Source: Nguyenibacter vanlangensis (GTDB taxonomy: Bacteria; Pseudomonadota; Alphaproteobacteria; Acetobacterales; Acetobacteraceae). From it: DNA of 44,399 nucleotides. The notes beneath the pieces were generated by a model. It did not search any database. It was not told where the DNA came from and worked only from the letters and a program-made list of their open reading frames with translations. Each line of letters begins with the position of its first letter. The stretch's first letter is position 1. Position numbers and translations under genes: made by a program. Below, piece by piece: positions 20,314-41,407 of this stretch. The DNA is taken from contig NZ_JABXXP010000004.1 in assembly GCF_013376155.1 (NCBI RefSeq), forward strand, positions 1 through 44,399. Direction: 5' to 3'.

Positions 20314-21267
20314 TTATGCCGCGGCGTAGGACAACACACCGATATTGTCGAAGAACCGGGTGGCCTCGCGACCCATCAAGCCGATTCCGCTGACGGCCGG
20401 CACCAGGTGCCGAAATACGGAGCGCTGCATGCTCTGATTTATCTGGGACGCGCGGATCAGCTCGCGACATTCGCTGCGGGGGATGCCCATCGGGGTCCAG
20501 ATGTCCTCTCCGAACAGATGCTCGCGCAGTGTGTGGCAGGCCTCCACGACGAATTCCTCGCGCTCTCGACGTTCATGCTCCATCAGCTGCGGATAGAAAC
20601 CGCTCAAGGCAACCTGTCCGGTCGCGAAGTGACGCGCCTCGTCGCGCAACACCAGCGCCTGCATGTTTTTCACGAAGGGATCGTTGGAATATGCCTGCAC
20701 GTTCTTGAAGAAAGTCAGTGCCAGGCCTTCGATTAGGATCTGCATTCCTAGGGATGCGAAATCATGGCGGGACTCCCCCATGATCTGCTCGAGCAATTTA
20801 TACAGAGCCCCCGATATTGGATAGCTGTTCTTCATCTTGGACATCAGGCGGCTGTAGACTTCGATATGCCGCGCCTCGTCCATAACCTGAACCGCGTTGC
20901 AATATTTGATCACCATGTCCGGTTCGGACTGGGCAATCCGCGAGGCACAGAACAGGGCACCCTGCTCACCGTGCAAGATCTGCGATATGTTCCATCCTTG
21001 GACATGATTGCGCAGGTCGGCCCTATTTTTCTCCGACATCTTGTCCCAGGTCGACGAGCCGTAGATCGCGATCGTACCGTCCGGCATGGCGAGCGGATTG
21101 TCCTCGTTCAGCTCGTACGTCCAGTCGATGTCCATGTGCGCATCCCACTGGTTACGTTTCGCCTTGTGGTAGAGCGACAACAGTGTGGGGTTGTCCTCGA
21201 CATAGTCGGCGAACTGGAACTTGGCGACAGCTTCGATGGCGCTCGGAATACCATGTTCAATATTCAT
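20314..21267 (-). CDS. Ferritin-like diiron oxygenase
   Basis: The 317-aa all-helical protein has the complete six-ligand set of a ferritin-like diiron enzyme: E101 (HGEQGA), E131/H134 (DEARH), E180 (LIEGLAL) and E210/H213 (a second DEARH). The E101-E131 and E180-E210 spacings are equal. The extra His of AurF-type N-oxygenases (HxxxExxH) is not present at the second motif, so the closest relatives could be R2-like or desaturase-like oxidases as much as N-oxygenases. It would hydroxylate, desaturate or N-oxygenate an ACP- or CoA-bound intermediate. It is the last gene of the operon, and an IS end lies about 60 bp beyond. Confidence 0.8.
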   Translation of the reverse strand: MNIEHGIPSAIEAVAKFQFADYVEDNPTLLSLYHKAKRNQWDAHMDIDWTYELNEDNPLAMPDGTIAIYGSSTWDKMSEKNRADLRNHVQGWNISQILHGEQGALFCASRIAQSEPDMVIKYCNAVQVMDEARHIEVYSRLMSKMKNSYPISGALYKLLEQIMGESRHDFASLGMQILIEGLALTFFKNVQAYSNDPFVKNMQALVLRDEARHFATGQVALSGFYPQLMEHERREREEFVVEACHTLREHLFGEDIWTPMGIPRSECRELIRASQINQSMQRSVFRHLVPAVSGIGLMGREATRFFDNIGVLSYAAA

Positions 21268-21285
21268 TTTCTTGCTTCCTTCGGA

Positions 21286-22137
21286 TCAGATGGCGGTCTG
21301 GGGCGAGGTCTTGTCTGCCGCCGCAGAATTGTGGAGTTCGATCACCGCATTGGGCGACAAGGTAATATGGGCGATGGCGTGGTAGCCATTGAGGGCGAGA
21401 GAGCCGACGATTGCGGTTGCCGGCCTAGCGCCGGCGCATGCCTCGATCAAGCCGATCCAAGGATCAGAGCCGAAGCTGTGGCCGTATTCGCCGTGACGGT
21501 CAGCGCACTCGTTTGGTAGATGTGACGTGGCGCGGAACCCTTTGCGGGTTGCCTCAGGGAAAAACGGCGTGCTGACAACCTGCGCTGGCTTGGCGGCGGT
21601 GAAAACGCCAAGTGCCTTGCGAAAATTACGTAGCGCGCCGGCTTTCGGCACGGCGTCGACAGATACGTCTGCCGCCGCCCCGGCGCCGACGTCGATGATG
21701 AGCGTCGTTATGCCGAAGCCTGAGTTGCCCCAGGCATCGTTCCTGCGCCAGAAAGTGAAGTTGTGAACATCACAATCCTGAATGAGGATCATGATGGGCC
21801 CCGTGATCCCGAGATGGGTCACGTGGCGTAGGATGTAGCCCCAGCCGGTGCATTCGTAGGCGTTGATCAAAAGGGGCGTGCAACCGGTTGCCTCGGCTAG
21901 GGCCCTGGTGACGGCATGCTGTTCTGGCCCGGGCTCGGTCACCCGCGGCGACATGATTGTCGATGTGACGAACACATGGTCCGGCGCAACGCCGGTTGCG
22001 GTCATGGCTTCACGTGCGTCCTGAGCGAGCAATCGCGCAAGGTCGCTGACAGCGCCTGCCAGGGGAGATGCCGACACGCCACCGAACGGGTAGCCCGAGC
22101 GGCGGTAGGTAGCCGCCCGAAGCACAAGGCCGGTCAT
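21286..22137 (-). CDS. KSIII-like thiolase-fold protein
   Basis: At 283 aa it is shorter than FabH (about 320). C96 in NAYECTGWGYIL is at the expected nucleophile position, and GEYGHSFGSDPWIGLIEA (H220) matches a KSIII catalytic-His region. A second His, H253, lies in LNGYHAIAHI. It may condense or transfer an acyl group from CoA or ACP. The ATG at 22137 overlaps the acyl ligase stop (ATGA), and it ends 18 bp before the diiron gene. The Cys and His suggest an active enzyme, unlike the second half of the tandem KSIII-like protein in the same operon. Confidence 0.72.
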   Translation of the reverse strand: MTGLVLRAATYRRSGYPFGGVSASPLAGAVSDLARLLAQDAREAMTATGVAPDHVFVTSTIMSPRVTEPGPEQHAVTRALAEATGCTPLLINAYECTGWGYILRHVTHLGITGPIMILIQDCDVHNFTFWRRNDAWGNSGFGITTLIIDVGAGAAADVSVDAVPKAGALRNFRKALGVFTAAKPAQVVSTPFFPEATRKGFRATSHLPNECADRHGEYGHSFGSDPWIGLIEACAGARPATAIVGSLALNGYHAIAHITLSPNAVIELHNSAAADKTSPQTAI

Positions 22138-23759
22138 CGGACAGGCTCCAGCGTGGATTGGGTTGCGAACACCTGCCGGTATTCGGCCTCCAGCAATGGC
22201 CGGTCGATCTTGCCGTTCGGGTTGCGCGGGAGGTCCGCCCGCATGACGATCTCATGCGGAACCGCATAGTTCGGCAAGGATCGTGCACAGGTGCGTCCTA
22301 TCGCATCCAGCCCTTCCCGCGCATTGTCCGGATGGCTGTCCGAGGCGACGTAGAGCGCCACGATCGCCTGACCAAGCGTCGGGTGCGGCACGCCGAATGC
22401 CACTGCCTCGCTGACGCCAGGGGCAGCGAGAAGAGCCTCTTCGATGTCGGTTGCGCTCACCCGGTAGCCCGATGTCTTGATCAGACCGTCGCGGCGGCCG
22501 ATGAAATACAGGAAACCATCGTCATCACGGCGCACGAGGTCTCCGGACCATACGGCGATATCCTGTCGCAGACTGGCGCCAAACGGGTCGGGGACGGGAC
22601 GAAATCGCGCGGCGGTGGCTTCGGGCGCACGCCAGTACCCGAGCGTAACAAAGGCGCCGCGATGAACGAGCTCACCGATCTCGCCGCTGTCGGCCTCGGT
22701 TCCGTCCTCGCGGAGGACGCGGACATCCGCGTTGGGGACGGCCTTGCCGATCGAATTGGGGCGCCGTTCGACTTCCATCGGATCCAGGTAGGTCGATCTG
22801 AAGGCTTCGGTCAGGCCGTACATTAGATAGGGTGATGCTTTGGGGAAGGTGCGGCGCAACGTGCCGAGAAGTGGGGCAGGCATATGGCCGCCAGTATTGG
22901 CGATCGTCCGGATCGTGCCGGCGGTGCTGGCATCCCAGTCCGCAGCAGTCAGGCGATGCCACAGGGGCGGCACCCCGGTTATGGAGGTCACCGCGTGCTC
23001 GCGACAGGCAGCCACGACCTCGTCCGCGACAAGGAAAGTAAGCAGGTGAATCTTCGCCTGTGCGTCAATCGCGGTCGTCAGTTGGCTCAGCCCGGCATCA
23101 AAGCTCATCGGCAACACGCTGAGAATTGTGTCGTCCGACCTGGTGCCGAGATAGGCGTTGACTGACTGGGCACCCGCGACGAGGTTGCGGTGCGAAAGGA
23201 CAACGCCTTTGGGAGCACCGGTCGACCCCGAGGTGTAGAGAATGGCGGCGGGATCGAGTTCGGACCCGTTGAGTGCGGGCAGAGACGCGCCACACGCCTC
23301 GAGGTCGCTCCATTCGACAAGGTTTTGCGCGTTGGTGGTGCTGGTGTCGGTGCGGATCAGCATACCCTCGAAGGATGCGGCCTCCATGCATGACGACCGC
23401 CGGCCGGTGGTAATGATGGCTCGCGCCTGGGAATTGGCCAGAATATGTCCGGCCTGCTGGTTTTTCAGCAGCGGGTTGATCGGCACGGCCATAGCGCCGA
23501 TACGCATGCAGGCGACCAGCGCGATCGCGAATTCGAAATTCTTGTCGAGGTAGATCGCCACACGGTCGCCCGAGCGGATCCCGGCCTCGACCATCCCAGC
23601 GGCAATCGCGTCGACGCGATCATCGAAGGCACCGAACGCAAGTGCATCCTTCCGGTAAGTGAGGGCGATCTTGTCAGGTCGCTCCCAAGCGGCCTTGCGA
23701 AGCATATCGGAGACGCTCTGGATCGAGCGCCGATGGTAGGAAGGTGAGGCGATGGTCAC
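22134..23759 (-). CDS. AMP-forming acyl-CoA/acyl-ACP ligase
   Basis: The 541-aa ANL-superfamily enzyme has the A3 P-loop AILYTSGSTGAPKGVV, the A5 motif YLMYGLTEAF, the hinge region YFIGRRDGLIKTSGYRVS and the C-terminal catalytic Lys in NPNGKIDR. It should adenylate a carboxylic acid and load it on CoA or on the operon's ACP. The ligase, PLP decarboxylase and ACP combination is also known from exosortase A-associated clusters, and this ligase resembles that type. The start is GTG at 23759, overlapping the acyl-CoA dehydrogenase stop as GTGA. Confidence 0.93.
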   Translation of the reverse strand: MTIASPSYHRRSIQSVSDMLRKAAWERPDKIALTYRKDALAFGAFDDRVDAIAAGMVEAGIRSGDRVAIYLDKNFEFAIALVACMRIGAMAVPINPLLKNQQAGHILANSQARAIITTGRRSSCMEAASFEGMLIRTDTSTTNAQNLVEWSDLEACGASLPALNGSELDPAAILYTSGSTGAPKGVVLSHRNLVAGAQSVNAYLGTRSDDTILSVLPMSFDAGLSQLTTAIDAQAKIHLLTFLVADEVVAACREHAVTSITGVPPLWHRLTAADWDASTAGTIRTIANTGGHMPAPLLGTLRRTFPKASPYLMYGLTEAFRSTYLDPMEVERRPNSIGKAVPNADVRVLREDGTEADSGEIGELVHRGAFVTLGYWRAPEATAARFRPVPDPFGASLRQDIAVWSGDLVRRDDDGFLYFIGRRDGLIKTSGYRVSATDIEEALLAAPGVSEAVAFGVPHPTLGQAIVALYVASDSHPDNAREGLDAIGRTCARSLPNYAVPHEIVMRADLPRNPNGKIDRPLLEAEYRQVFATQSTLEPVR

Positions 23760-25603
23760 AGCGCATATACTCCTGCTTCGTCAGCCGCGTGGGTCGGCGC
23801 AACGATGCCGTGGTGCATGGTGATGAAGCTCGAATTGTCGAGAATGACGGAGCTGTCGCGGACGACCGCAGGCAGCAGGTTGTGCACGAAGAAGCGGGCA
23901 GAGGCGATCTTGCCCTCGTAGAACGTGACGTCCCCGCTCGAGAGGTCTGGCTCCTTCAGGCGCTTTCCTGCGATGACGGCAGCGCGGAGCAGTACCTGCG
24001 CAACCACGCTCGTGCCGAACATGTGCAGGATCCGGGTGCAGTACTGGCCGATGGCTTCCGGAGTGTCGCCGGCCGACACGCTGGCAATATACTCCATCGT
24101 GCGAACGATGGCCTCGAGCGCCGTGGCGCAAGCGGCAAATTCGCGCGCAAGGGACGGCTCGTCGTCCCCCTCGAGGAGAAACGCATTATAGTCCTCGACG
24201 AAATACGCGAGGTTGCGTGATTTCCGCCCAAAGCCGAGCTTGTCACGCACTAGGTCCTGCGCCTGGATGTAATTTGTGCCCTCCCAGATCGACAGGATTC
24301 GAATATCGCGGGCGTATTGTTCGATCGGGAGATCAGCACAATAGCCAACGCCGCCATGCACCTGCATCGACAATTCGGCGACGCGCCAGGCCTGATCGGA
24401 GACGTATGCCTTGACGATCGGGGTGTAGAGCTGCGCCATTTGTGCGTGTCGGGCTGCGAGCTCGGTGTCGCCTGCAGCGCGGGCCGAGGCGGCCGCACTC
24501 AGATTGCCGGTCAGCTTGCCGATCAGGCCGCGGGAGCCCTCGACCAGCCCCTGCATTTCGAGCAGCATGCGCTGGACGTCGGGGTGCTCGATGATGTGGC
24601 AGTGAGGCGCCTTCATGTCGAAGCTTCGCATGAAAGAGCGGCCCTGGACCCGCTTGCGGGCGAAATCCAGCGCGTGGAGATAGGCGCTCGATGCCATGCC
24701 CAGAGCAAACAGGCCTGTGCCCATGCGGGCTTCCTGCATGACCGATTGCAGCTGTAGGAGCCCGATATTTACGCGATCGCCAAGGGCGAAGGCCCGCGTG
24801 GGCCCCTCGGCGCCGAACAGGAGATGGGCGTTGGCACATGCCTTCAAGCCCATCTTCTTCTCGATCTTGGCACAGGTCACGTTATTCGGCGTGAAGGTAC
24901 CATCCTCTTCCGGCCAATATTTTGGAACGAGCAGACACGTCATCTGGTAAGTGCCGGCGCTGCGCGCATTGCTGCGGGCGAGGACGATGTAGACAGTGTT
25001 ATCCGTCATCTCGTGCATGCCTGCCGAGATGAAGATTTTCTCACCCGTCACCAAGTGCAGACCCGAACCGTCCGGTGTCGCGCAAGATGTCACCATCGAC
25101 ACGTCACTGCCCGCCTTGGGTTCCGTGACGCAGAAGCAGGCGTCCCAGTCGAGGGTTTTTAGCTTGGGCAGAAGAGCCTCTTTCTGACGGGGCGTGCCGT
25201 GCTCGCTGATCAGACGGATCGCAGGAATGTTGAAGCCGCCGTAGGTGATGAATGCCGGATTGGCGCCCGACAGTATCTCCATGTTAACCTGCTGGGCCTC
25301 ATACGGGATTACCGTGCCGTGCGTTTCCCGCCAGTAGGTCACGTAACGGCGCCACAGATCGGTAAACACGGTGGGCAGCCGCACTTTTCCACCGTCTTCG
25401 AGGCGTGCCTCCTCCCGATCCGCTTGCATATACGCGGCACCGAGGTGACGCGAGAATTCCTCGGCACGATCGACCAGCATTTCGATGTCGACGCTAGTCA
25501 GACCGTCGTAGGGAGCGTTGGCGAGAACTGAGTCGAGCTTGGCGATTTCATTTAGGTAGAAGGACATCTCGCGGCGGTCGTGCCGGTATGCGTTTTTTGT
25601 CAT
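23756..25603 (-). CDS. Acyl-CoA dehydrogenase, large (DmdC/FadE-like)
   Basis: The 615-aa size and the C-terminal extension place it with the longer DmdC/FadE5-like flavoprotein dehydrogenases. Visible features are CFCVTEPKAGSDVS (FAD/substrate loop), GEKIFISAGMH, QVHGGVGYCADLPIEQYARDIRI and IWEGTNYIQAQDLV with the catalytic-base Glu. It should introduce an alpha,beta double bond in an acyl thioester. It starts 2 bp after the Fe/2OG oxygenase stop and ends in a GTGA overlap with the acyl ligase, an obvious functional partner. Confidence 0.93.
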   Translation of the reverse strand: MTKNAYRHDRREMSFYLNEIAKLDSVLANAPYDGLTSVDIEMLVDRAEEFSRHLGAAYMQADREEARLEDGGKVRLPTVFTDLWRRYVTYWRETHGTVIPYEAQQVNMEILSGANPAFITYGGFNIPAIRLISEHGTPRQKEALLPKLKTLDWDACFCVTEPKAGSDVSMVTSCATPDGSGLHLVTGEKIFISAGMHEMTDNTVYIVLARSNARSAGTYQMTCLLVPKYWPEEDGTFTPNNVTCAKIEKKMGLKACANAHLLFGAEGPTRAFALGDRVNIGLLQLQSVMQEARMGTGLFALGMASSAYLHALDFARKRVQGRSFMRSFDMKAPHCHIIEHPDVQRMLLEMQGLVEGSRGLIGKLTGNLSAAASARAAGDTELAARHAQMAQLYTPIVKAYVSDQAWRVAELSMQVHGGVGYCADLPIEQYARDIRILSIWEGTNYIQAQDLVRDKLGFGRKSRNLAYFVEDYNAFLLEGDDEPSLAREFAACATALEAIVRTMEYIASVSAGDTPEAIGQYCTRILHMFGTSVVAQVLLRAAVIAGKRLKEPDLSSGDVTFYEGKIASARFFVHNLLPAVVRDSSVILDNSSFITMHHGIVAPTHAADEAGVYAL

Positions 25604-25605
25604 GG

Positions 25606-26679
25606 TCAGAATTCCTCATTCGGGAGGTTGTCAAACATGGCCACCTCGATTTCGCGCTCGCCGCTGAAGATATTGCGGCCATGGGCGGTGGAGATGTTGT
25701 CGACGAGCATCACGTCGTCTCTCTCCCAGGGGGTCGCCACGGTGAGTGTGTCGAGTGCCGCGTAGACGGGCTGGAGTTCAGCGTCGATGATGACGCTGCC
25801 GTCGCCCCACGTCACAGTGGTTGGGAGTTTCGCTCCTGGGGGGTAGAGCCGCCTTATCGAACTGCTGAAGTGCCCCAGGGATCGGGGGTTGGCATGGAGC
25901 GTTGCGATCTGGTTGAACCATATGGTCTCGCTCGAAAAGGGATGTTCGATCGTGCCCGGACTTGCGTACGTTATCTCGAGGCTTCCATCATCGCCCCATT
26001 CGAACGATCCGAGATCGGAGCAGATGGCTTCGACTTCCTTACGATCCTTCGTACCGAACGCCATGTCCCAGCTCCGGTGAAAATTCCGGATCGCCGGCGC
26101 GAAGGGGTGGGGCGGCATATCAGGGTGGACGAAGTGCCGACGGTAGATGATTCCAAGGCGATCGAGTTTGTCATTGAAGGTCGCCGGAAGCATCTGCCGC
26201 ATCCGGCGCATGTCGCCCAGCGTGGTCTCCCCGCCCGTCGGTGACGGCTTTACACAATGAAAGACCAGAAGGTCGGGGAAGCTGGGGGCATAGCAGATTT
26301 CCTGATGCAGATGCAGGCGGAAACCGGGCGGCGCGCTCGTTGACGTCAGCACCCGTCCATCCTTCGTAGCGCGGGGGTTGGCAATTCCGCGACAGCCCTC
26401 GGAGAAAGGCATCAGATGATCAAAGAGGGTGCCGAATTGTCTGGTCGTCGTCGGGGCGAAGCCACGAAACAGCATGGCGCCTGCTTCGTTCAGCGCCGCC
26501 ATGACGGCGCCATTGTTGTCACGAAGCCACGTCCGCCATGCTTCCGGGGCCGTTGCCAAGGCGGATCCGGGAAATGGCGTTACCAGCAATGGCATGCCCT
26601 CGCCGAGGCGGCCGCACGAGATACCGGGCGCAAACGGTGTTTCCGACAGAAAACCCCGGCGGGACGTTCTGTTGCTCAT
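25606..26679 (-). CDS. Fe(II)/2-oxoglutarate oxygenase, TauD-like with HxE motif
   Basis: The start at ATG 26679 gives 357 aa. The iron ligands are H125 and E127 (LHLHQEICY) and H333 (STAHGRNIF); R342 nearby may hold 2-oxoglutarate. The HxE form, in place of HxD, is known from clavaminate-synthase/VioC-like members of the TauD superfamily. Such enzymes hydroxylate, desaturate or oxidatively rearrange amino-acid-like substrates, which suits a pathway with a PLP decarboxylase and an ATP-grasp ligase. The N-terminus (NRTSRRGFL) contains a twin Arg but lacks a hydrophobic stretch, so it is not a signal peptide. A 53-bp gap separates it from the ABC-2 permease gene. Confidence 0.85.
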   Translation of the reverse strand: MSNRTSRRGFLSETPFAPGISCGRLGEGMPLLVTPFPGSALATAPEAWRTWLRDNNGAVMAALNEAGAMLFRGFAPTTTRQFGTLFDHLMPFSEGCRGIANPRATKDGRVLTSTSAPPGFRLHLHQEICYAPSFPDLLVFHCVKPSPTGGETTLGDMRRMRQMLPATFNDKLDRLGIIYRRHFVHPDMPPHPFAPAIRNFHRSWDMAFGTKDRKEVEAICSDLGSFEWGDDGSLEITYASPGTIEHPFSSETIWFNQIATLHANPRSLGHFSSSIRRLYPPGAKLPTTVTWGDGSVIIDAELQPVYAALDTLTVATPWERDDVMLVDNISTAHGRNIFSGEREIEVAMFDNLPNEEF

Positions 26680-26732: not shown

Positions 26733-27857
26733 TCAGGAAGCGGGCTGTGACCAGCGGAACAGTCTGATCGACACTGCGAAAAAGAGTGCGGTCCATCCGA
26801 AGATTACGATGATTTTCATCAGGTCTGCTTCGGGCGGGCTGCCGGTGAAAAGGCACTCCCGGAGCGCGGAGACAACGCCATGCACCGGAAGGATCGAGAG
26901 CGCTTTACCCGCCAAGGTCGGAAAATCTTTTAACGGGATGGTCAGGTCACCCAAGAACATCAGCGGGAAGTAGACGAGGTTGCCGATCATCGTTGCGCCG
27001 CCGATGCTCGATGTCCGAGCGCCCAGCGCCAGGCCAAGTGCCAGAAACATGGTCGTGCCGAGGACGATAAGCAGGGCCGCCTCGCTGATGCCTGCCGGCG
27101 TCGCCTTAAACGGCACGCCGTAGAGAAAATGTCCGGCGAGAAGGAGTGCGACCGCCGATGCGATGGCGATGATCGCGCGTGCCGCCAGGAATGAGGCCAG
27201 GAATACCGTTCTCGGAAGCGGCATGCAGGCATAGACCTTGATCGTCTGGGTTTCCCGCAAGGCTGCGAGGGCGACCGACGTCGTCATGATCCCGGTCGAC
27301 ATCATGACCATGACGAGGACGCCGGTCAGGATATACTGGGCATACGAGATCTCGACATTTTTTCCTCCTGCGTTGGTGTAGGCGACGTCGACGACCCGGT
27401 TGGGGCGGGTTCTCGTCGTGTCGAAGACCATGCTGAAATTGCCGATTGCATGGGCGACTGTTCTCACCGCGATCGGAGCACCGAAGCTGTAGGACACGAC
27501 GACACGTGCCGGCTGATCTGGCGCCGCCTGGCCGAAGCCCTTCGGCACTTCTACGCGAACGTTGCTGGCGGCAGTCGGCGCTTTTGCCTGATCGTCGCTC
27601 AGGCGGCGCTCGGTGATTGTCACGTCGCCGGAGGAAAAAACCAAGGGCACGGTGTCGATATATCTGGCCGATGCCGGGCTGTGATCATGATCCACAATCT
27701 CGATGGGGACGTTGCCAAGCCCGCCTTTCGAGCCGAACGCGAACAGCATTACGGTCAGAAGGAAGACGGGGAACACCAGGCTCCAGAAGATCACCGCGCG
27801 GTTGGAAAGCATGATCGTGAGTTCGTTGCGGAGGAGGCGCAGGAATAGGTCAGACAT
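26733..27857 (-). CDS. ABC-2 type transporter permease
   Basis: The 374-aa protein has one N-terminal membrane helix (VIFWSLVFPVFLLTVMLFAF), a periplasmic domain (about residues 45-175) and a C-terminal block of about five helices ending before RLFRWSQPAS. This is the topology of ABC-2 exporters with one long extracytoplasmic loop. The start overlaps the stop of the ABC ATPase by 8 bp, so the two form one exporter. It probably moves the operon's product, or a lipid-linked intermediate, across the inner membrane. Confidence 0.9.
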   Translation of the reverse strand: MSDLFLRLLRNELTIMLSNRAVIFWSLVFPVFLLTVMLFAFGSKGGLGNVPIEIVDHDHSPASARYIDTVPLVFSSGDVTITERRLSDDQAKAPTAASNVRVEVPKGFGQAAPDQPARVVVSYSFGAPIAVRTVAHAIGNFSMVFDTTRTRPNRVVDVAYTNAGGKNVEISYAQYILTGVLVMVMMSTGIMTTSVALAALRETQTIKVYACMPLPRTVFLASFLAARAIIAIASAVALLLAGHFLYGVPFKATPAGISEAALLIVLGTTMFLALGLALGARTSSIGGATMIGNLVYFPLMFLGDLTIPLKDFPTLAGKALSILPVHGVVSALRECLFTGSPPEADLMKIIVIFGWTALFFAVSIRLFRWSQPAS

Positions 27858-31327: not shown

Positions 31328-31338
31328 CAGTATTCTCC

Positions 31339-33473: not shown

Positions 33474-34114
33474 AGTGCCATTTCCTGCAACATGGCTTCC
33501 GCCTGCTCGGCCTCTAGTTCGCGCTCCTGGTCAAAAAACTCCTCGCGGGTGATGTCAAAGAGGATGCGATCGTATACTTCACCGTCGATGACGTGGCACT
33601 GTCGCTGACGCCCGACGTCGACAAACCCGGCAGCGAGCATGCCCGCACAGGAAATCGTGTTGCCGTCGGCGACGAAGGCGTGAACTGAGCGCAGATCGAG
33701 TGTCTCGAAGGCTTCGCGCATCAGCGCGCGCATCTCCCGCGCCATGTTGGTGCGTGCGGGAGGGCGAAGGCGTGGTCGAAGGCCCCAGATCATCGCGGTA
33801 CCGAAGACGGTGTTGATGTGAGCCAGGGCCACGACGCCGATCGGGCGTCCATCGGGTTCGGTGGTGACGACCCGGATCATGTTGGCGGGCGACCTGCTAG
33901 CGATATGCATGCCCTGGGGCGTGTAGGTCTGACGGCCGCCGCCGAAATCCAGCCACTGGTGCACCGTTTTGGGTTCGAGCCACTCCGAGATGAGCCGGGC
34001 CGTTTCCTGGGTCACCTCGCGCCGCGAGGTCTCCAGATGTCGCCAGCGCTTGACTGCCAGCCCGGTAACGGACCCGCCCATATCATTCACGCGCATTGCT
34101 GACGTGCAGTTCAT
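33470..34114 (-). CDS. GNAT-family N-acyltransferase
   Basis: I place the start at ATG 34114, which overlaps the previous stop as ATGA, giving 214 aa. The central block has GRPIGVVALAHINTVFGTAMIWGLRP, a span of about 12 residues, then NMAREMRALMREAFETLDLRSVHAFVADGNTISCAGMLAAGFVDVGRQR, which follows the GNAT fold of the RimJ-like type (helix, N at 'GN', 'GF'). It could acylate an amine made by the PLP decarboxylase, or N-acylate the final product. The acyl donor could be CoA or the operon's ACP. A Glu-rich tail follows. Confidence 0.78.
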   Translation of the reverse strand: MNCTSAMRVNDMGGSVTGLAVKRWRHLETSRREVTQETARLISEWLEPKTVHQWLDFGGGRQTYTPQGMHIASRSPANMIRVVTTEPDGRPIGVVALAHINTVFGTAMIWGLRPRLRPPARTNMAREMRALMREAFETLDLRSVHAFVADGNTISCAGMLAAGFVDVGRQRQCHVIDGEVYDRILFDITREEFFDQERELEAEQAEAMLQEMAL

Positions 34115-35253
34115 GCGTTCCTCCATTCCTGTGAGAGTGCAATCCGGGTTGTTTGTCGCGGGGGAGTCGCGCGACCATAAAGTTCGCGGAAGCAGCGATA
34201 GGAGCTGCCCTCCATTTTTCCGAAGCCCTGAAGATCCCGCGCGATGGCGGGCGATCGGACATTGCCGCGGACGATGATGTCCATCAGGAGCTCGTTACAG
34301 GCGAGTTTCAGCGCGAGAACCTGCTGGAGCAGCAGGTTGCTGTAGAGCCTGGCATCCGTGATGCTGTGGCCGATCCGCTCGAGTTCGGCTACGAGATCGC
34401 GCTGCCGGGTGGTCAGGTTCAGGTCGCCCCTGTCGTGCAGCCAGCGCACATGCGCCAGGACGGCGCGCACGAAAAATGGCCGAACCGTTGTCAGGAGCTG
34501 GTTGATCATCGTGAATCCGCCGCGCCCGCATCGATCAGCGTCGGTGACTTCCACTGTGCCCTTGAATGCCCCGAGATGGACCACCCCCCCCAGGAAGGGC
34601 GCGCCATTGCTAGACTTGGCAAGCTGGCCGCATTGTTGCGGAGACAGCAGATAGGGGATCGGGTACATCGCACCCTCGGCTCGCACCGCGACGATACCGA
34701 AGCCAGGCTTGTTAGCCCCCATGATCCAGCACTTGTCGACATGGATTTTCTGTACGCCGTCTTCGACCTTGAGCACGCTGTTCCAGTTTGCCAGTGCCGG
34801 CCCGCCCCCGTCCGTCATCATGAAGAGGGTGCCGAAGCCCTGTTGGGCCCACTCGCGGCCTATGGCCTGCTGGCGCTCATCCACGAAAAAACGATGCGTC
34901 AGGCGAGAGAAGCCTTTGAGCAGCGTCAGAAGATGCGGGTTAAGGCTTTCCTTTCTGATGGTTTCGACAATGTCATCGAGCGGATCGGTGAGGTCGGCCG
35001 GCAGGGTAGTGCTGGAACCAAATTCCGCCTGTGCCCGCAGCGTTCCGTCGAACGCGCTTTCGATGATGATTTCGGAGTCCAGCAGCCGGGTGACGGCCTC
35101 TGATACAAGGCCGCAAAGGTCGTCACTGAGATCGGTGCCGCGGGCGAGCGCTTCGATGGCAATCCTGCCGAACCCCGCATCGCGCCAGACACAGATGGCG
35201 GGCTGCGACGTCGCGCGCGAGAGGGTTTCGGTGGCTGGAGTGTCATGCAGCAT
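34111..35253 (-). CDS. Divergent acyl-CoA-dehydrogenase-like protein
   Basis: About 380 aa with an acyl-CoA dehydrogenase-like layout: a helical N-terminus, a mid-beta region with GFGTLFMMTDGGGPALAN (cf. the 'T-E-P-x-x-GSD' loop), KCWIMGANKPGFGIVAV, and a C-terminal helical bundle. The usual catalytic Glu and QxxGGxGY motifs are not evident, so it may act as a flavin-binding partner or have lost dehydrogenase chemistry. I choose ATG 35253, with an 11-bp overlap to the upstream stop; ATG 35286 is also possible. Family call moderate. Confidence 0.62.
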   Translation of the reverse strand: MLHDTPATETLSRATSQPAICVWRDAGFGRIAIEALARGTDLSDDLCGLVSEAVTRLLDSEIIIESAFDGTLRAQAEFGSSTTLPADLTDPLDDIVETIRKESLNPHLLTLLKGFSRLTHRFFVDERQQAIGREWAQQGFGTLFMMTDGGGPALANWNSVLKVEDGVQKIHVDKCWIMGANKPGFGIVAVRAEGAMYPIPYLLSPQQCGQLAKSSNGAPFLGGVVHLGAFKGTVEVTDADRCGRGGFTMINQLLTTVRPFFVRAVLAHVRWLHDRGDLNLTTRQRDLVAELERIGHSITDARLYSNLLLQQVLALKLACNELLMDIIVRGNVRSPAIARDLQGFGKMEGSSYRCFRELYGRATPPRQTTRIALSQEWRNA

Positions 35254-35803
35254 GGTCGAGCCACTCTTCGGCGGCGTCGTGGCCATAGGTGATCGATCCG
35301 AGGGAGGCGGTGACCTGGGCCCGGGAGAACCACGAGGTAAAGGTATCGTTTTCGATCCCCCATGCCTGGCACGTGAGACTGTTGTCGCCCCGCTCGATGG
35401 TGTCCCGCCGGAAATGATCGGAAATCAGAAGCACAGGTCCCGGATCTGGCACGCCGGCGAGCCAGGTATGCGGATCGTGACCAAGGAAGACGTCAGGGGC
35501 CAGCAGCGACTTCGGCAGCGACAGCATGTACGGGCCGGAGAACCGAGCGAAGATCGTGACACCGTTGAAGGCGTCCCGGGCCTCGCTGACCAGATCGGCC
35601 AGCAAGGTGTAATGCTGGCTGTAATTCAGCAGGACGGGTGTCGACGACGTATTGGCAATCTCCTCGAGGGCGCCATAGTCCGACGTGTCGCCGAGGGCCG
35701 GCGAGCGCATCTCGACCTCCATCGGCACTGAGCCGAAAGGTGCCCTGATCAGGACGCCCCGGGCACTGCAGGACGCTTGGCGAATATCAATTCCTGTTGT
35801 CAT
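35243..35803 (-). CDS. 186-aa protein of unknown function
   Basis: The start at ATG 35803 overlaps the PLP decarboxylase stop (ATGA). I recognise no family. The protein is acidic, mixed alpha/beta in appearance, with YGALEEIANTSSTPVLLNYSQHYTLLADLV, FARFSGPYMLSLPKSLL and LISDHFRRDTIERGDNSLTCQAWGIEND as its more distinctive segments. No signal peptide or membrane helix is visible. Tight coupling on both sides implies a dedicated role in the pathway, perhaps as a pathway-specific enzyme or a partner of the adjacent dehydrogenase-like protein. Confidence 0.7.
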   Translation of the reverse strand: MTTGIDIRQASCSARGVLIRAPFGSVPMEVEMRSPALGDTSDYGALEEIANTSSTPVLLNYSQHYTLLADLVSEARDAFNGVTIFARFSGPYMLSLPKSLLAPDVFLGHDPHTWLAGVPDPGPVLLISDHFRRDTIERGDNSLTCQAWGIENDTFTSWFSRAQVTASLGSITYGHDAAEEWLDHAA

Positions 35804-36948
35804 GACAGCATGTTCCCGATATATACCCGCGCCTGGCGGAGACTGAGAAAGCTCGCGACGGTGTAGGTTGCGTTGTAGGCGCCACATCCCTCGAAGGCGT
35901 AGAGGTCGCCGACCGCGGGCCTGTCAGCCTCGGGTCCGAGCTTGCCGATACGATCCTGACGATTGCACGAGCTTCCTGTCAGGGTGACCGGCTTGTTTGC
36001 CTGCGTGAGTGACGCGCCCGCACGGGCAACGGCTCTGGGTGCCTGGAAATTTCGGTAGGCCGCCTCTGTCTGAGCGAGGAGGAAATTCTGGGCCATGCCG
36101 CCATCGCAGACCGCAACGATCCGGTCGTCGAACTCTTTTACGGCGAGAATGCGCGTGAGATACTGGCCTGCATCACCGAAGATTGCCCGCCCGCTCTCAT
36201 GGGCTACCGTAAGGCGCTGCGCGAGCGGCGTGATCGCCTCGAGATAAGGGCCAAAATCGAGCTTTCTCCAGTCGCGGGGAAAGCCGCCACCGAGATTGAC
36301 GAACTCCAGCTTGCGCCCGGTGGTGGCCTCGATCAGATCAACCAGTTTCGGCATGGCCTGTGCGAGAGCGATACCGCGTGGCACGAAGCTGTGCGAGCCG
36401 CCGAAGGCGTGCAGTCCCCGGACCTTAATTCCCGCGTCAGACAACACGCGCGCGGCCTGGACCAGCGTGTCACGGTTCATTCCGAAATGATCGGGTCCGT
36501 GCCCGGAGAGAGGCTCGATGAGGGATTCCACGTTGACGCGCATCAGGACAGGCCGGATGGTCGACCCCGCGCCGGCTACTTCGGCGAGGGTCTTCGCCTG
36601 GGTGATGTCGTCCACGATCAACGTTGCCCGGGACGCAATGGCCCCGCGCAGCAACGTGTTGTCCCAGGCGGGGGTGTTGATGTACCGCTCGCACCGCACA
36701 CGCCCCACGACGAGGTCGAGCTCGCCCAGGCTTGCAATATCGACCCCGTCCTCGAACGCATGAGCGCAGCGCTGGAGGAGCTCGAAATTGGGGTTGGCCT
36801 TGACCGAGACGATCAATCGTGTGCCCAGGCGCGACCGCAATGCAGTGTAGTTCTCGATCACCCTTTCAGGATCAAAAATATAGGCTGGGGTTGAGATTTT
36901 CGTCGATGTTGTCATCGGCGGAGGTGGGATGCGTGTGACGGCGTTCAT
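35800..36948 (-). CDS. Fold-type III PLP-dependent decarboxylase (ornithine/diaminopimelate-decarboxylase-like)
   Basis: The 382-aa enzyme keeps the full set for this fold: K50 in SVKANPN (PLP Schiff base), H183 in HAFGGSHSF, the glycine loop GGGFPRD (220-226), E251 in HESGR (250-254), C328 and D332 in SSCNRQDRIG, and aromatic residues in CGAYNATY (about 355-362). It should decarboxylate a basic or amino-acid-like acid, possibly while it is carried on the ACP, as proposed for relatives in ACP-linked clusters. It starts 3 bp after the ACP stop, which supports a functional pair. The exact amino acid cannot be read from sequence. Confidence 0.94.
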   Translation of the reverse strand: MNAVTRIPPPPMTTSTKISTPAYIFDPERVIENYTALRSRLGTRLIVSVKANPNFELLQRCAHAFEDGVDIASLGELDLVVGRVRCERYINTPAWDNTLLRGAIASRATLIVDDITQAKTLAEVAGAGSTIRPVLMRVNVESLIEPLSGHGPDHFGMNRDTLVQAARVLSDAGIKVRGLHAFGGSHSFVPRGIALAQAMPKLVDLIEATTGRKLEFVNLGGGFPRDWRKLDFGPYLEAITPLAQRLTVAHESGRAIFGDAGQYLTRILAVKEFDDRIVAVCDGGMAQNFLLAQTEAAYRNFQAPRAVARAGASLTQANKPVTLTGSSCNRQDRIGKLGPEADRPAVGDLYAFEGCGAYNATYTVASFLSLRQARVYIGNMLS

Positions 36949-36951
36949 GGC

Positions 36952-37218
36952 TCAGACCAGGGCGTCTTCAGCGTGCGCCTCGGCGGCCGCCTTCGTGAAG
37001 TTGCGATCGAAATCGCTCAGCGTCGTGTACTGATCGATGTTCAGGTCTTCGGGTGACACGCGCCCACCGTAGATCTGCTCGCAGGCGAGGAGCAGCTCGA
37101 CGATGACCAGAGAGTCCACGCCGAGTTCGCCCAGGCCGACATCGGGCTCGACGGAGTCCACGTTCAGGATACGGGCGACTTCGGCTGTGAGCTTCTGAAG
37201 TTTCATGTTGGTGGTCAT
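36952..37218 (-). CDS. Acyl carrier protein
   Basis: The 88-aa protein has the carrier motif GVDSLVIVELLL, with the Ser that receives phosphopantetheine at residue 36. The preceding LGELGVDS and the helix pattern are those of a stand-alone ACP/PCP. It probably holds the amino acid or acyl chain processed by the decarboxylase, oxygenases and ketosynthase-like proteins. A short AAGAA site precedes the ATG at 37218; ATG 37206 is a possible later start. The product ends in an acidic tail. Confidence 0.93.
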   Translation of the reverse strand: MTTNMKLQKLTAEVARILNVDSVEPDVGLGELGVDSLVIVELLLACEQIYGGRVSPEDLNIDQYTTLSDFDRNFTKAAAEAHAEDALV

Positions 37219-37294
37219 GATGGAATTCTTCTGTTTTCGGATGGTTGTCGGAAAGGATCGTGATTGAACGCGGGGAAGGTCAGGCTGCGGCGCG

Positions 37295-37570
37295 CTAGGT
37301 GGTCTCGGCGAAGCAGCGCAGCAATTCGGTGACCGGAATCCCCTCGATTGTCATTCCGTCGTAACGGCTGTTCGAGATTGCCACTCCTACGAGACTGACC
37401 GCAGTCAGGGTGGAGCGGTCGAGACTGACACGGTGGAAAGCCGCGTCATTAAGGCCGACGGAGGTGAAGGTCGCTTTCTCCATCGAGACTTCCTCGAAGG
37501 TACTGCCATCGAGGCGACCGTCCTGTGCCACGATCTGAACGTCGCAGTTGCTGAGTGGAACTGTCGTCAT
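37295..37570 (-). CDS. Small pentapeptide-repeat-like protein
   Basis: The 91-aa protein repeats a five-residue pattern such as STFEEVSMEKATFTSVGLNDAAFHRVSLDRSTLTAVSL, which should fold into a right-handed beta-helix of about three coils. It ends GMTIEGIPVTELLRCF, a conserved tail I recall from small pentapeptide proteins. It has no signal peptide. It lies between the ATP-grasp and ACP genes. Known small pentapeptide proteins include DNA-mimic resistance factors, but a scaffold role for the ACP enzymes is just as plausible. Confidence 0.72.
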   Translation of the reverse strand: MTTVPLSNCDVQIVAQDGRLDGSTFEEVSMEKATFTSVGLNDAAFHRVSLDRSTLTAVSLVGVAISNSRYDGMTIEGIPVTELLRCFAETT

Positions 37571-37609
37571 TTGCTGTCTGTCTCCTTTGCTCGTGTAGTT
37601 GAACCGGCG

Positions 37610-38857
37610 TTACAGCGCGGTGAGTTCGAGTTTTTCGTAGAAGCGCTCTTCGATGAGAGCTGCCTTCTGCTCGAAGTCGTCGATGCCATCAGACTGCAGG
37701 ATGAAGAGTCCGATGAAATCGGTGCAGTGCGCGCAAGACGCCCTGAACTGCCCTTGCGCGACATTGACCTGCTTTCGCAGTATCCACGGGTCCTGAAAGC
37801 TCGCTTCGCTGGGCGCCGCGCTGACGATGCCGCCTCGTGCGTGTCGCAAGCCGATCAGGCCCGCCGTGAATGTGTGTCCTGCCTGCATGACGGGAGCCGG
37901 CGCATTCCCGAGCTCGACCTGAAGCGCGGCAAGGGGGAGGTGCCAGCCATACTGCGCCTCGATCATCCAGATGATGCCGCCACCACCGGTGCGGGCGGCA
38001 ACCTCGCAGAAGACGGCCGGCTTGCCAGCGGGGGCGAAGGCCTCGAGATGGATGACACCGCGCTCCATGCCGAGACCCGTGACCGACTTCTGGGCCAGCT
38101 CCGCGAGCTCGTCATGCAGTGCACCAGGCTCGAGCATTGCCGAGACGAACGGGGTGCCTGCTGTAAAGTCGATATTTGCCCGCCCTGGCAGATAGGGCGC
38201 GATCGCGATGTGCGAGAGCGTGCCGCCGATCACCAGCCCGTTGACGTGATAAAGGGTTCCGTCGACAAACTCTTCCAGTTCATACTGGTCTATCGACGCC
38301 CCCCGTTTACTGGAAGCGAACTCTTCAACCCATGCATCGTAGGCGGCCATGTCGCGGCAGAACACGACACCGCGTGAGCCACACTCTGCACGCGGCTTGA
38401 GGACCAGCCGCCCGTGGGCCTTGAGGATTTCCTCCGCGAGCTCCCGCGACGTGGCCGGCCCATGCCTGGGCACTGCGACACCTGCCGCCGACACGCGCTC
38501 CTTCATCAGGATCTTGTCGCGGAACCCTTCGGCAACGCTGGGCGTCATGCCAGGCACGCCCAGCGCGGCGCGCAGGGATGCTGCCCGGCCGACCAGGAGC
38601 TCGTTCAGCGTCAGGATCGCGTCGAACGGGGCGATGGCGTGATGTCGGGAGACGATCTCCAGCAGCGCGCTTTCATCATCGAACACATCCCAGCGGACGA
38701 CCTCGACGGTAACGTTGCGCAAGCCCTTGAACGAGGATGCATCACCCCTGGCTGCCAGGACCACAATGTCAGCATTGAGGCTTGCGATTACACGGTGGCC
38801 AGCGAGGTCGGTAAATGCAGGTCCTTCCTCGCGGGTAAGCAGGGCGATCCGTTTCAT
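37610..38857 (-). CDS. ATP-grasp ligase
   Basis: The 415-aa enzyme starts at ATG 38857 with an ATGA overlap to the KSIII-like stop. It has a Rossmann-like N-terminus (KRIALLTREEG), the B-loop region LKPRAECGSRGVVFC with the nucleotide-binding Lys, and a metal-binding stretch (GVIHLEAFAPAGKPAVFCEVAARTGGGGI) with the E…E/N pattern of the ATP-grasp core. Such enzymes form amide bonds from an acid and an amine, via an acyl-phosphate. With an amine-making decarboxylase nearby, ligation of an amino acid to another acid is likely. A Cys-rich CAHC near the end may be structural. Confidence 0.9.
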   Translation of the reverse strand: MKRIALLTREEGPAFTDLAGHRVIASLNADIVVLAARGDASSFKGLRNVTVEVVRWDVFDDESALLEIVSRHHAIAPFDAILTLNELLVGRAASLRAALGVPGMTPSVAEGFRDKILMKERVSAAGVAVPRHGPATSRELAEEILKAHGRLVLKPRAECGSRGVVFCRDMAAYDAWVEEFASSKRGASIDQYELEEFVDGTLYHVNGLVIGGTLSHIAIAPYLPGRANIDFTAGTPFVSAMLEPGALHDELAELAQKSVTGLGMERGVIHLEAFAPAGKPAVFCEVAARTGGGGIIWMIEAQYGWHLPLAALQVELGNAPAPVMQAGHTFTAGLIGLRHARGGIVSAAPSEASFQDPWILRKQVNVAQGQFRASCAHCTDFIGLFILQSDGIDDFEQKAALIEERFYEKLELTAL

Positions 38858-40824
38858 TGTTTCTCTCCCGGGCACTCGATCAAGATTGCTGCAGCGTGGC
38901 CGGACAATGAGACCGTCCAGACGATGCCCCGCATCGGCAAGGAAGAGCTCTTTGCGCGTCGGATCAGCTCTGCGATGCCGAACAGTGGGGCGGCGGAACC
39001 GTAGTGGATCTCTGGGTTCCACAGGCGGTCGGCCGGCACGCCGAGCGAGTGTGCGATGTCGCGCCGGGTTGCATCGGCGATGCCGTCGCCTAGGATCAGG
39101 TCGATGGCATCGATATCTGTTCCGGTGGAGGAGAGAAGGCCACCGACTGCACCAAGTGCTGAGGTTTTGACGAACTGCTCGAGGGTATCGCCCACGGTTG
39201 CCCAGAGTGTTTCGGGAGCCTGAGCAAGCGTAAGATACTCGGCGCCAATAGTGGCGAGCGGCTTCACCTCCGAATTGGCCGGACCGACCACGCAGGCTGC
39301 AGCTGCATCTCCAAGCGGCGCAAGTCCCGGGTGACGGCGGTAGAATGGGGACACCCACTTGTCGGCGGCACTCAGGCAGACCCGCCCGCTCTGGTCGCTG
39401 TCGAGGAGCTGGAGGCCGGCAAGCCTGAGCGCCGTTGGAACACCCGCGGTCCCGAGCTGGTCCAGTGACATCGCAGACAAGGCGCTCGGGAAATGGTCGT
39501 GCTGGATACGAAGGCAAGTCGAGCCGAGAATATTCTCGTCAAGCATGCATTGCGCATGCAGCACGTGGCTGATGGAGGTGTCCTCCGTGAGGCCGAGCTT
39601 GTTCACAGCGGCGGACGCCATGTCAGGTATACGGACCCCTCGTGCAACCGGAATGGCAGCGATGCTCTGGACTTCGTCAAACCCGTCAATCGGCGGGCAC
39701 GAGTGTTGCCCGGCCTCGGTAAAGAACATGTGCGGGAATACACCAACTATGTTCGTGCCGCGAATACTGGAAACCTCCTGTGACGACGGCAAGTCGGTCG
39801 CGATCGCGTAGATGCCGAGAGCCGGCGCGACGCGGGGAGTGGCATTCGCGTATTTGTCTTCAGTGCTGTCCGGCGGCAGCATAAGGGCCACGGCGTGGGC
39901 GCCGACATTGGATTGTCCGCAAGCAAGTACCGCCTTGCCGTCCTCAATGACCTCAAGGCCACGGTCGAGCAGGTTTATCGCGAAATCCGCCGTGCAGGCA
40001 TGTCCTTTCGCACTGATGTTGTGGTCGAACACCGTGCCTGTGGAAAGCCCGTTCGAGCGCTCAACCATGCGCCAGTAGGAGCGATCGGCGTTGATCGGCA
40101 GGATGGTGCCGACATCATCCCAGGGGATGTTTTCCGCGCCGAGGGTCAGGTTGAGCGTGTCTCGCGTCTGATACCATGCTGTCTTGCCGATAGCGGCGCT
40201 CGCCGCCGAGTTGATTGGCCCGGCATGATGGATTGAATAATTGCCCAGGCCGATACGGGCGATCCTTGTCTTGAGGTTTCGCCGGCCAATCAAAATTGCT
40301 GACCCCCCGTCTGACATGATGCCAGCATCCTGTCGAACCCGGTATTCTCCGCCGCCGAACACACGGTCGGAGGTGAGAACCAGCCCAAGTGCATCGGCGG
40401 ACTGGGTCCGCAGATGCTGTGCCACGAGCCAGATTGCATTAATCACGGACGCGCAGGCGAGGTGGCTCACCGAAAAGGACAGTGCGGGTGCCAGCCCTTC
40501 GGCATTGACGAACTCGGCGACAATCGATCGAGGGGCAGGTGGAACGCTGAAAGCCTGGGTGTGAGCATGCGCCACGATGGAAATGGCTGACTGATCGAAC
40601 GTTTCGGTGCGCTTCAGCTCCGCATAGGCGGCCGACACAATGGAGAGATCGTCTTCTTCGGGTCCGGCGACATGGAAATGCCGGCATCCGTTGGCGGTGA
40701 GAGTGTCGACAAGCGACTGGCCGAGGCCCTCGCCGGTGCTCCAGCGGGATATGTCTTGTGGCGGCCCGGGAAGGTATCGGGTTGCACCTACAACGCCGAC
40801 ATCGGAAAGTGGAAAGGAATGCAT
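38854..40824 (-). CDS. Tandem KSIII-like fusion protein
   Basis: The 656-aa protein consists of two thiolase-fold domains (about 1-330 and 335-656). The first keeps C124 (SHLACASVI) and H268/N269 with H275 (DHNISAKGHAC), a plausible KSIII catalytic set. In the second, the Cys position is T459 (QLGTAGVPTAL) and the 'GH' His is replaced (HYGSAAPLFG), so it looks catalytically dead. Size and symmetry suggest an internal pseudo-dimer. It could do condensation or acyl transfer while the second half binds the ACP. Starts after a 46-bp gap; stop overlaps the ATP-grasp start. Confidence 0.8.
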   Translation of the reverse strand: MHSFPLSDVGVVGATRYLPGPPQDISRWSTGEGLGQSLVDTLTANGCRHFHVAGPEEDDLSIVSAAYAELKRTETFDQSAISIVAHAHTQAFSVPPAPRSIVAEFVNAEGLAPALSFSVSHLACASVINAIWLVAQHLRTQSADALGLVLTSDRVFGGGEYRVRQDAGIMSDGGSAILIGRRNLKTRIARIGLGNYSIHHAGPINSAASAAIGKTAWYQTRDTLNLTLGAENIPWDDVGTILPINADRSYWRMVERSNGLSTGTVFDHNISAKGHACTADFAINLLDRGLEVIEDGKAVLACGQSNVGAHAVALMLPPDSTEDKYANATPRVAPALGIYAIATDLPSSQEVSSIRGTNIVGVFPHMFFTEAGQHSCPPIDGFDEVQSIAAIPVARGVRIPDMASAAVNKLGLTEDTSISHVLHAQCMLDENILGSTCLRIQHDHFPSALSAMSLDQLGTAGVPTALRLAGLQLLDSDQSGRVCLSAADKWVSPFYRRHPGLAPLGDAAAACVVGPANSEVKPLATIGAEYLTLAQAPETLWATVGDTLEQFVKTSALGAVGGLLSSTGTDIDAIDLILGDGIADATRRDIAHSLGVPADRLWNPEIHYGSAAPLFGIAELIRRAKSSSLPMRGIVWTVSLSGHAAAILIECPGEKQ

Positions 40825-40870
40825 TGAGGCGGGTCCAATCGCATGCAGTGAGTGGATTGTGAGTGCTGGT

Positions 40871-41407
40871 TCAGGCGGCGATCACATTGCCGACGGGGAG
40901 GGACGTGTGGCTGGTCGCGGCGTATTTCCGCGTCAGTGTCACTGCCTTGCCGAGGAAGATGCCGGCCATGTGAGCGGCCACCGCGATATTCAGCAGGGCG
41001 CAGCCGGGGCTGGCGAGCCAGCTCGGATGAATGGCAGCAATCGTGGCGAAGGCGTAGTTTGTCAGGAATGCGACGATCAACAGGGGAAGATATGTCCTGT
41101 CGCCTGGCCGACTGATGACGCCACGGTCATGGTCAGCGAGGATAGCCTCGTTGTGCACACTTAGGTGCCCAACGAAGCCTCCTATGAGAAGGAAGGCCGC
41201 CCAGAGCATGCAGTTCCCGACGCTGATCGCATATCGGGTCGCAAGGATGCTGCCGCCCCAGCACAGGAATACTGCCGGGACGACGAATAATCTCAGGACG
41301 CGCGTAGTGTTCGGTCGGCCGGCCTGGATGCCGCGATAGACCAGAAAGCCTGCGATCGCGAGAACCCACCAGGGCGTGTGGGAAAATGTTTGTGTAACGG
41401 TGCTCAT
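40871..41407 (-). CDS. Small integral membrane protein (DUF6622-like)
   Basis: The 178-aa protein has about five hydrophobic helices, starting with TPWWVLAIAGFLVYRGIQA. The opening recalls DUF6622-type small membrane proteins, a group of unknown function. It is the first gene of the operon and has a good AGGA ribosome site 9 bp before ATG 41407. As the first gene, it is closest to the lux-box-like promoter region. Role unknown; it may act as an immunity, regulatory or transport accessory. Confidence 0.7.
   Translation of the reverse strand: MSTVTQTFSHTPWWVLAIAGFLVYRGIQAGRPNTTRVLRLFVVPAVFLCWGGSILATRYAISVGNCMLWAAFLLIGGFVGHLSVHNEAILADHDRGVISRPGDRTYLPLLIVAFLTNYAFATIAAIHPSWLASPGCALLNIAVAAHMAGIFLGKAVTLTRKYAATSHTSLPVGNVIAA

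Follow-up and report, generated by a model that had tools for sequence, protein, structure and literature searches.

A probable relative of the Burkholderia AFC-BC11 gene cluster, with exchanged end-group enzymes, in Nguyenibacter vanlangensis

AFC-BC11, an antifungal N-acyl-tetrapeptide of the Burkholderia cepacia complex with the structure N-acyl-(dehydro-beta-Ala)3-dehydroLys, is assembled by a thiotemplate chemistry free of condensation domains, and its structure and assembly were published in 2025 as a new antifungal chemotype (PMC12186527). According to the description given there, the VinN-type enzyme AfcQ activates aspartate, by the authors' argument at the side-chain carboxylate, and loads it onto the carrier AfcK; after decarboxylation by AfcP, AfcQ attaches further aspartate to the free amino group. 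The trimer is acylated by AfcA, which sets its length, AfcL stores the acylated trimer as a thioester and then transfers it to lysyl-CoA, AfcE is proposed as the desaturase, and AfcS, AfcF and AfcT are given as the genes for the citrate-derived fatty acid (PMC12186527). The steps of AfcQ, AfcP, AfcA and AfcL were shown in vitro for the Burkholderia enzymes, in the case of AfcL with surrogate substrates (PMC12186527). Among the genes of the cluster, AfcE is the acyl-CoA dehydrogenase BCAS0208, accompanied by the citrate synthase BCAS0207 and the ABC transporter BCAS0204 (PMC6301696). In our study, a run of 20 genes located on the minus strand of a contig of Nguyenibacter vanlangensis (NZ_JABXXP010000004.1, of which the whole stretch analysed, 44,399 nucleotides, is called the window) was compared with this system. 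The operon is probably an afc-type cluster, a far relative of the Burkholderia set that appears intact, belongs to a new lineage and carries exchanged enzymes for the end groups. Since this kind of operon was already characterised in 2025, it is not categorically new.

Correspondence with the afc cluster

The third replicon of Burkholderia cenocepacia emerged from a comparison (tblastn) of plasmid sequences with the protein that carries two fused beta-ketoacyl-acyl carrier protein synthase III (KAS III)-like domains; on this replicon, 15 of the 20 proteins match one 37-kb locus (BLASTP, E 1e-3 or better), and the reverse search agrees. This locus can be regarded as the afc cluster because its gene families and their order fit the published description, the Afc letters of single genes being assigned from family, position and the text of PMC12186527. 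The matches comprise the carrier, AfcQ, AfcP, three KAS III domains, AfcE, AfcJ, AfcM, AfcN, AfcU, two ATP-binding cassette (ABC) systems and a LolA-like protein; the first membrane protein, the ATP-grasp enzyme, the pentapeptide-repeat-like protein, the GNAT and the presumed outer-membrane protein are without counterpart in the afc loci by BLAST. In comparison with afc, AfcO and AfcR are fused in the window, the order of genes is shuffled, the genes for the ATP-grasp enzyme, the GNAT and the pentapeptide protein are added, and the LysR regulator and divergent genes of afc, including the expected site of the lysine desaturase AfcC, have no counterpart that could be found. In the reverse search, no frame of the window was matched by the citrate synthase AfcS or by AfcF, AfcI or AfcX, and AfcA matched only the AfcQ-like protein (24%), which leaves the window without a match for a fatty acyl-AMP ligase (FAAL) of its own. 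The remaining frames of at least 120 amino acids (aa) from the B. cenocepacia locus, all of which were included and among which AfcT was not singled out, have no window counterpart, the exceptions being frames antisense to genes already named.

The specificity of this match was assessed by scanning 84,980 species genomes with two short peptide patterns for an AfcN pair, a search limited to these patterns, which gave 39 loci. Thirteen of them belong to Burkholderiaceae (11 Burkholderia, Robbsia and Trinickia), and each, searched with 10 kb on either side, matches the same 14 of the 20 window genes; the ABC-2 permease falls outside those flanks, and matches of the second ATPase mostly hit the other ATPase. 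The remaining 26 loci are actinobacterial, shorter (3 to 21 kb) than the 37-kb afc locus, and match 1 to 4 of the 20 window proteins each, namely the AurF-like gene and at most generic ATPases or ligases. A match of 15 of 20 in a single locus, compared with 1 to 4 of 20, thus exceeds chance as judged from these comparisons. As a marker of afc clusters the AfcN-like gene itself was rejected, given that the actinobacterial loci carry it without other afc genes.

The original prediction, made from the window sequence, described a tightly coupled run of 20 minus-strand genes, and this is confirmed by open frames throughout, from 41407 down to 20314, and by close spacing. With the start codons chosen, on which these figures depend (the ATP-grasp gene starting at the ATG at 38857), 15 of the 19 junctions range from an overlap of 16 bases to a gap of 25, and the other four measure 39, 46, 53 and 76 bases. 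No promoter or terminator signal above chance was present in 34000-41700, the part scanned; Rfam gave no match at the gathering score, and a crude scan showed no lux-box-like palindrome. Pfam is in agreement with the acyl carrier protein (ACP), the type III pyridoxal phosphate (PLP) decarboxylase, the ATP-grasp enzyme, the AMP-ligase and the GNAT that had been predicted, resolves the two iron oxygenases into an AurF-like diiron and a TauD-like protein, and supports the envelope export genes as two ABC systems with a LolA-like protein. The three KAS III-like domains were also recovered, two of them fused and one in a separate gene. Pfam gave no condensation, ketosynthase-acyltransferase or thioesterase module for any of the 20 genes. 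The general picture of a small molecule tethered to an ACP, for which one apparent operon provides synthesis without a modular non-ribosomal peptide synthetase (NRPS) or polyketide synthase as well as oxidation, acylation and export, is supported.

On the other hand, the statement that no characterised cluster has such a set does not stand, as the Burkholderia afc cluster holds counterparts of 15 of the 20 genes and its chemistry is described in PMC12186527. A close match to a characterised cluster had been named as what would speak against the prediction; the cluster found is of the same kind, but with identities of about 25-61%, a shuffled order and different end-group genes. The features of the operon are collected in Table 1.

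Table 1. Genes of the operon, from the first to the last, with the match or motif on which each name is based
Product	Position	Strand	Basis
Small membrane-type protein, 178 aa, first gene	40871..41407	-	Open reading frame; no BLAST match in afc loci
Two fused KAS III-like domains	38854..40824	-	N half AfcO-like, 36%; C half AfcR-like, ~30%
ATP-grasp ligase, L-amino-acid-ligase type (BL00235, BacD)	37610..38857	-	Match in 0 of 13 afc loci
Short pentapeptide-repeat-like protein, 91 aa	37295..37570	-	Below Pfam cut-offs; match in 0 of 13 afc loci
Discrete carrier protein, AfcK-like	36952..37218	-	PF00550; 61% over 62 residues
Type III PLP decarboxylase, AfcP-like	35800..36948	-	45%; best solved relative BtrK
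AfcM-like protein	35243..35803	-	35% over 113 residues
AfcJ-like acyl-CoA/ACP dehydrogenase	34111..35286	-	37%; alternative start 35253 possible; fold search
GNAT	33470..34126	-	No match in afc loci; 31% to GNAT of second Burkholderia ACP/KAS III cluster (L007)
ABC ATPase	32730..33473	-	afc counterpart, 44%
FtsX-type permease	31339..32733	-	afc counterpart, 26% over 469 residues (26-32% across searches)
LolA-like protein	30491..31327	-	afc counterpart, 27%
Presumed outer-membrane protein, occupying the AfcI position	28903..30465	-	Position after LolA; no Pfam match
ABC ATPase, AfcV-like by position	27850..28887	-	35%
ABC-2 permease, AfcW-like by position	26733..27857	-	34%
TauD-family Fe/2-oxoglutarate-type oxygenase, AfcU-like by position	25606..26679	-	39%; HQE motif
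AfcE-like acyl-ACP dehydrogenase	23756..25603	-	45%
AfcQ-like aspartate adenylation enzyme	22134..23759	-	48-58%
AfcL-like KAS III acyltransferase	21286..22137	-	40%; YEC and GHxFGSDPW motifs kept
AfcN-like diiron-type protein, AurF family, last gene	20314..21267	-	46%

Proposed assembly of the product

In regard to the chemistry, a pathway can be proposed on the basis of gene content, homology and the kept residues seen here, from which we infer the product and, above all, both of its end groups. The AfcQ-like enzyme would adenylate L-aspartate at its side-chain carboxylate and load the AfcK-like carrier, in which the DSL motif is kept together with the carrier serine. The AfcP-like enzyme would decarboxylate the carrier-bound aspartate to beta-alanine, whose free amine could take the next aspartate and so give an oligo-beta-alanyl-ACP. 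The amine or amide head group on the ACP that had been predicted is thus retained, and narrowed to oligo-beta-alanine or dehydro-beta-alanine.

The AfcQ-like protein shares 58% identity with its counterpart in the B. cenocepacia locus over 380 residues, a span that reflects an afcQ gene which looks split there, and 48-51% with those of 13 other loci. The pocket arginine and the catalytic lysine corresponding to Arg311 and Lys503 in the numbering of PMC12186527 are kept in all nine aligned sequences, a correspondence that presumes the numbering of the paper to be two higher than that of the sequence L008. The stretch LMYGLTEAFRSTYL is identical in the enzymes of the window, of Burkholderiaceae and of a second Burkholderia cluster discussed below. 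The protein had been predicted as an acyl ligase; its sequence match speaks rather for an adenylation enzyme of the AfcQ type that activates aspartate, and the reading as a fatty acyl ligase was rejected on account of this likeness. The same protein scores above the NCBIfam cut-off for TIGR03098, named "acyl-CoA ligase, exosortase A system-associated". Ligases of this kind (46-48% among the matches listed) adjoin exosortase-A-associated PLP decarboxylases in rhizobia, and this ligase/decarboxylase pair may make beta-alanyl-ACP from aspartate.

An AfcP-like gene was found in all 13 Burkholderiaceae loci, at 44-45% identity to the decarboxylase of the window, which scores 281 to 307 bits with AfcP compared with 68 bits for BtrK. 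The latter belongs to butirosin biosynthesis, in which the ATP-grasp enzyme BtrJ, the carrier BtrI and the decarboxylase BtrK act on an ACP-bound amino acid to produce gamma-aminobutyryl (GABA)-ACP. A similar route, with the ATP-grasp enzyme loading, e.g., glutamate on the ACP, the decarboxylase forming GABA-ACP and the AMP-ligase activating an acyl chain, finds some ground in BtrK being the best solved relative of the decarboxylase and in the shared presence of ACP and ATP-grasp genes. We nevertheless consider it very unlikely, given the far closer likeness of the decarboxylase to AfcP, the identity of the AMP-ligase to AfcQ with its pocket arginine kept, and an ATP-grasp protein that matches amino-acid ligases.

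According to the afc-type pathway, the AfcE- and AfcJ-like dehydrogenases would desaturate the chain to dehydro-beta-alanine. Both are relatives of acyl-CoA dehydrogenases (ACADs) by sequence and fold, in line with the two ACAD-like proteins predicted before: one is recognised by Pfam, and the AfcJ-like protein, which has no Pfam match, by its structural model (predicted local distance difference test, pLDDT, 71), which matches ACADs with a Foldseek E of 3e-7 at TM-scores of just ~0.4-0.55. The AfcN-, AfcU- and AfcM-like proteins could take part in further steps. The AfcM-like protein was aligned with those of 12 of the 13 Burkholderiaceae loci, L016 being left out; its model (pLDDT 55) was too poor for a fold to be named, with no PDB match at E 0.001 and thiolase-fold proteins as the best PDB hits at E 0.05. 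In the two oxygenases the residues which we take, from family knowledge, to be of the metal-ligand type are kept, and so is the presumed PLP lysine of the decarboxylase.

The AfcL-like KAS III protein owes its name to the similarity with AfcL, as neither Pfam nor a PDB sequence search gave a match of its own; it would hold the chain as a cysteine thioester and hand it to an amine nucleophile. Its YEC and GHxFGSDPW motifs, which all eight sequences compared retain, are taken here to hold the Cys/His/Asp triad of AfcL. In the AfcR-like half of the fused protein (26-31% identity), a threonine at the cysteine position and a histidine align and may correspond to the first two residues of the Thr/His/Glu set of AfcR. 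KAS III homologues with a changed active-site residue are likewise described for bolagladin of B. gladioli (PMC7756342), a compound that can be likened to the present system by its description, having dehydro-beta-alanine on a discrete carrier and an ACAD-type desaturase. Its dehydro-beta-alanine is given an aspartate origin in PMC12186527. The bolagladin system, however, has a modular NRPS and a single dehydro-beta-alanine per molecule (PMC7756342), in contrast to the window without NRPS.

Related to this, beta-alanyl-ACP could be made once and not iteratively, as proposed for bolagladin, with the ATP-grasp enzyme and not AfcQ forming the amide bonds of a short lipopeptide. The likeness of the ATP-grasp protein to solved L-amino acid ligases, the absence of the FAAL by which trimer length is controlled in AFC-BC11, and the precedent of bolagladin itself would fit such a scheme. 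There is, however, no NRPS that could extend one unit, and the genes for the AfcQ-, AfcL-, AfcJ- and AfcE-like proteins stay in one cluster, just like those of afc, so this scheme seems rather unlikely.

Under the iterative afc-type pathway, both ends of the product are expected to depart from AFC-BC11. As no match was found for a fatty acyl-AMP ligase, a citrate synthase or a flavin adenine dinucleotide (FAD) oxidoreductase, a citrate-derived acyl end is not expected. Unlike the situation in AFC-BC11, the GNAT probably caps the N-terminus of the peptide from acyl-CoA or acyl-ACP, and such an exchange of GNAT for FAAL is supported by a related GNAT in a second Burkholderia cluster that has no AfcA match. 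At the other end, the ATP-grasp enzyme probably supplies or adds a C-terminal amino acid or dipeptide. It is nearest to solved L-amino acid ligases, which form dipeptides. Neighbourhoods of ATP-grasp matches in Paraburkholderia phymatum and on a Vibrio plasmid (2 of 176 matching records) were set aside, as they share only this gene, plus generic ATPases in the first. Passage of the lipid-like product through the envelope would fall to the two ABC systems, together with the LolA-like and the presumed outer-membrane protein. The product is thus probably a new compound on the same core, with both end groups differing from those of AFC-BC11.

Several observations weigh against this assignment. AfcA is absent from the operon, so chain length and the logic of acylation must differ. 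A FAAL homologue (32%) is located on another contig of the genome, and as the assembly is incomplete (3.92 Mb in 1,307 contigs, 87.6% complete), acylation in trans is possible; that 11-kb contig has no other afc match. In the AfcO-like half of the fused protein the cysteine is kept, and the histidine of the AfcO LPHNAD motif, which we take as the histidine of the Cys/His/Asp triad, is an isoleucine, so the role of this half may differ. Equating the presumed outer-membrane protein with AfcI failed for want of sequence similarity (hhalign probability 0.4), as did equating the first membrane protein with AfcX, which gave no match. Finally, with identities as distant as those observed, substrates may have shifted.

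Related clusters, distribution and surroundings

A second cluster of Burkholderia cenocepacia (locus L007, 5700-17900) has in common with the window an ACP, an AfcQ-like protein (45%), a decarboxylase (27%), KAS III proteins and two ACADs. It contains the GNAT related to that of the window, has LuxR and a LuxI-like frame adjoining, and shows no match for FAAL/AfcA or for the ATP-grasp, AfcN, AfcU, FtsX and LolA proteins of the window. A more distant relative is found on a plasmid of Agrobacterium vitis VAR03-1 (locus L006, 10000-29300), with two ACPs, three ACADs, KAS III, a decarboxylase, three AMP-ligases and a P450.

Furthermore, among 398 sampled genomes of the phylum, the AfcJ-like gene occurs in one besides that of the window, a genome of another class (G880), and within its family in 10 of 144 genomes, all of one genus. 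Five of these ten loci were examined and represent a third type, with AfcQ-like (27-29%), AfcP-, AfcJ-, AfcL-, AfcM- and AfcE-like proteins, a carrier, an ABC ATPase, an FtsX and a LolA-like protein in one order throughout. None of the five has a match for the ATP-grasp enzyme or the GNAT, and AfcA matches their AfcQ-like protein only. In G880 and G1241, frames read by eye also included an alpha/beta hydrolase and a protein resembling FAD halogenases, and an FAD protein in each of the five loci matches the protein at 2418-3683 of the window at 25-26%.

Taken together, the afc chemistry could be a chassis in which an oligo-(dehydro-beta-alanine) core stays fixed and the ends can be exchanged (FAAL/lysine in Burkholderiaceae, GNAT/ATP-grasp in the lineage of the window, halogenase-like/hydrolase in the third type), each giving a different photoswitchable, foldamer-like lipopeptide; in our opinion the chances of this model are evenly balanced. 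Neither this cluster variant nor the idea of an exchangeable chassis was found described in a literature search that missed most subscription papers.

Within the family of the window's genome, the AfcJ-like gene is present in that genome alone out of 397, and the 396 without it include the one-contig genome of the same species (G768), which has no match for the AfcN-like gene either. The operon therefore seems to be accessory. An AfcN-like match occurs in 14 of the 397 genomes (the window, nine at E below 1e-86 and four weak ones), and the surroundings of the nine strong matches, three of them on contigs under 17 kb, hold no operon gene except generic ATPases. At the level of the class, the AfcJ-like gene was present in 1 of 190 sampled, and the fused KAS III protein had 3 matches out of 385, namely the window and two weak partial ones.

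Upstream of the operon lie a divergent aldehyde dehydrogenase gene and a LuxI-type gene, and on its other side insertion-element genes, LuxR/LuxI genes and an ABC-three-component (ABC-3C) defence set. Two LuxI-type and two LuxR-type genes (14001-17021 and 42852-43904) flank the island, and the right LuxI-type protein also matches FeeM, an N-acyl amino acid synthase, below the Pfam cut-off. The ABC-3C set (5637-9294) consists of a CTD7 effector, an MC3 middle component and a DUF3732 ATPase. Near the contig end, the plus strand at 246-4467 carries ketosynthase-like, short-chain dehydrogenase/reductase and Trp-halogenase-like FAD genes resembling part of a polyene/fatty-acid-type cluster, a region matched by short fragments only in the other 13 genomes of the genus. 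At 44180-44399 there is a dispersed repeat, of which ~220 bases are found at 99% identity in the one-contig genome of the same species and a ~45-base core in many copies across the genus; the 99% identity supports the contig belonging to this species.

The left part of the window matches 53 plasmid records, with Rhizobium (14) the most frequent, and the best 20 plasmid matches listed are mostly transposase genes of Gluconobacter, Kozakia, Acetobacter, Komagataeibacter and Acidisoma (72-84%), from which the host is probably an acetic-acid bacterium; the assembly gave no 16S gene. Such transposase genes, together with marker genes missing from the same-species genome, could point to an island that insertion elements brought in and that has decayed or does not function. 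With all 20 frames open and closely packed, and the inspected catalytic motifs kept except in the AfcO-like half, this is the least probable of the explanations considered here.

If the operon works as proposed, the afc chemistry would not be a speciality of Burkholderia but a platform present in at least three lineages, and these would represent experiments of nature in which the steps of acylation and release have been replaced. The operon would also be an enzyme source outside Burkholderia, with new compounds to seek, and would offer a test of how chain length is set without the gatekeeper ligase AfcA.

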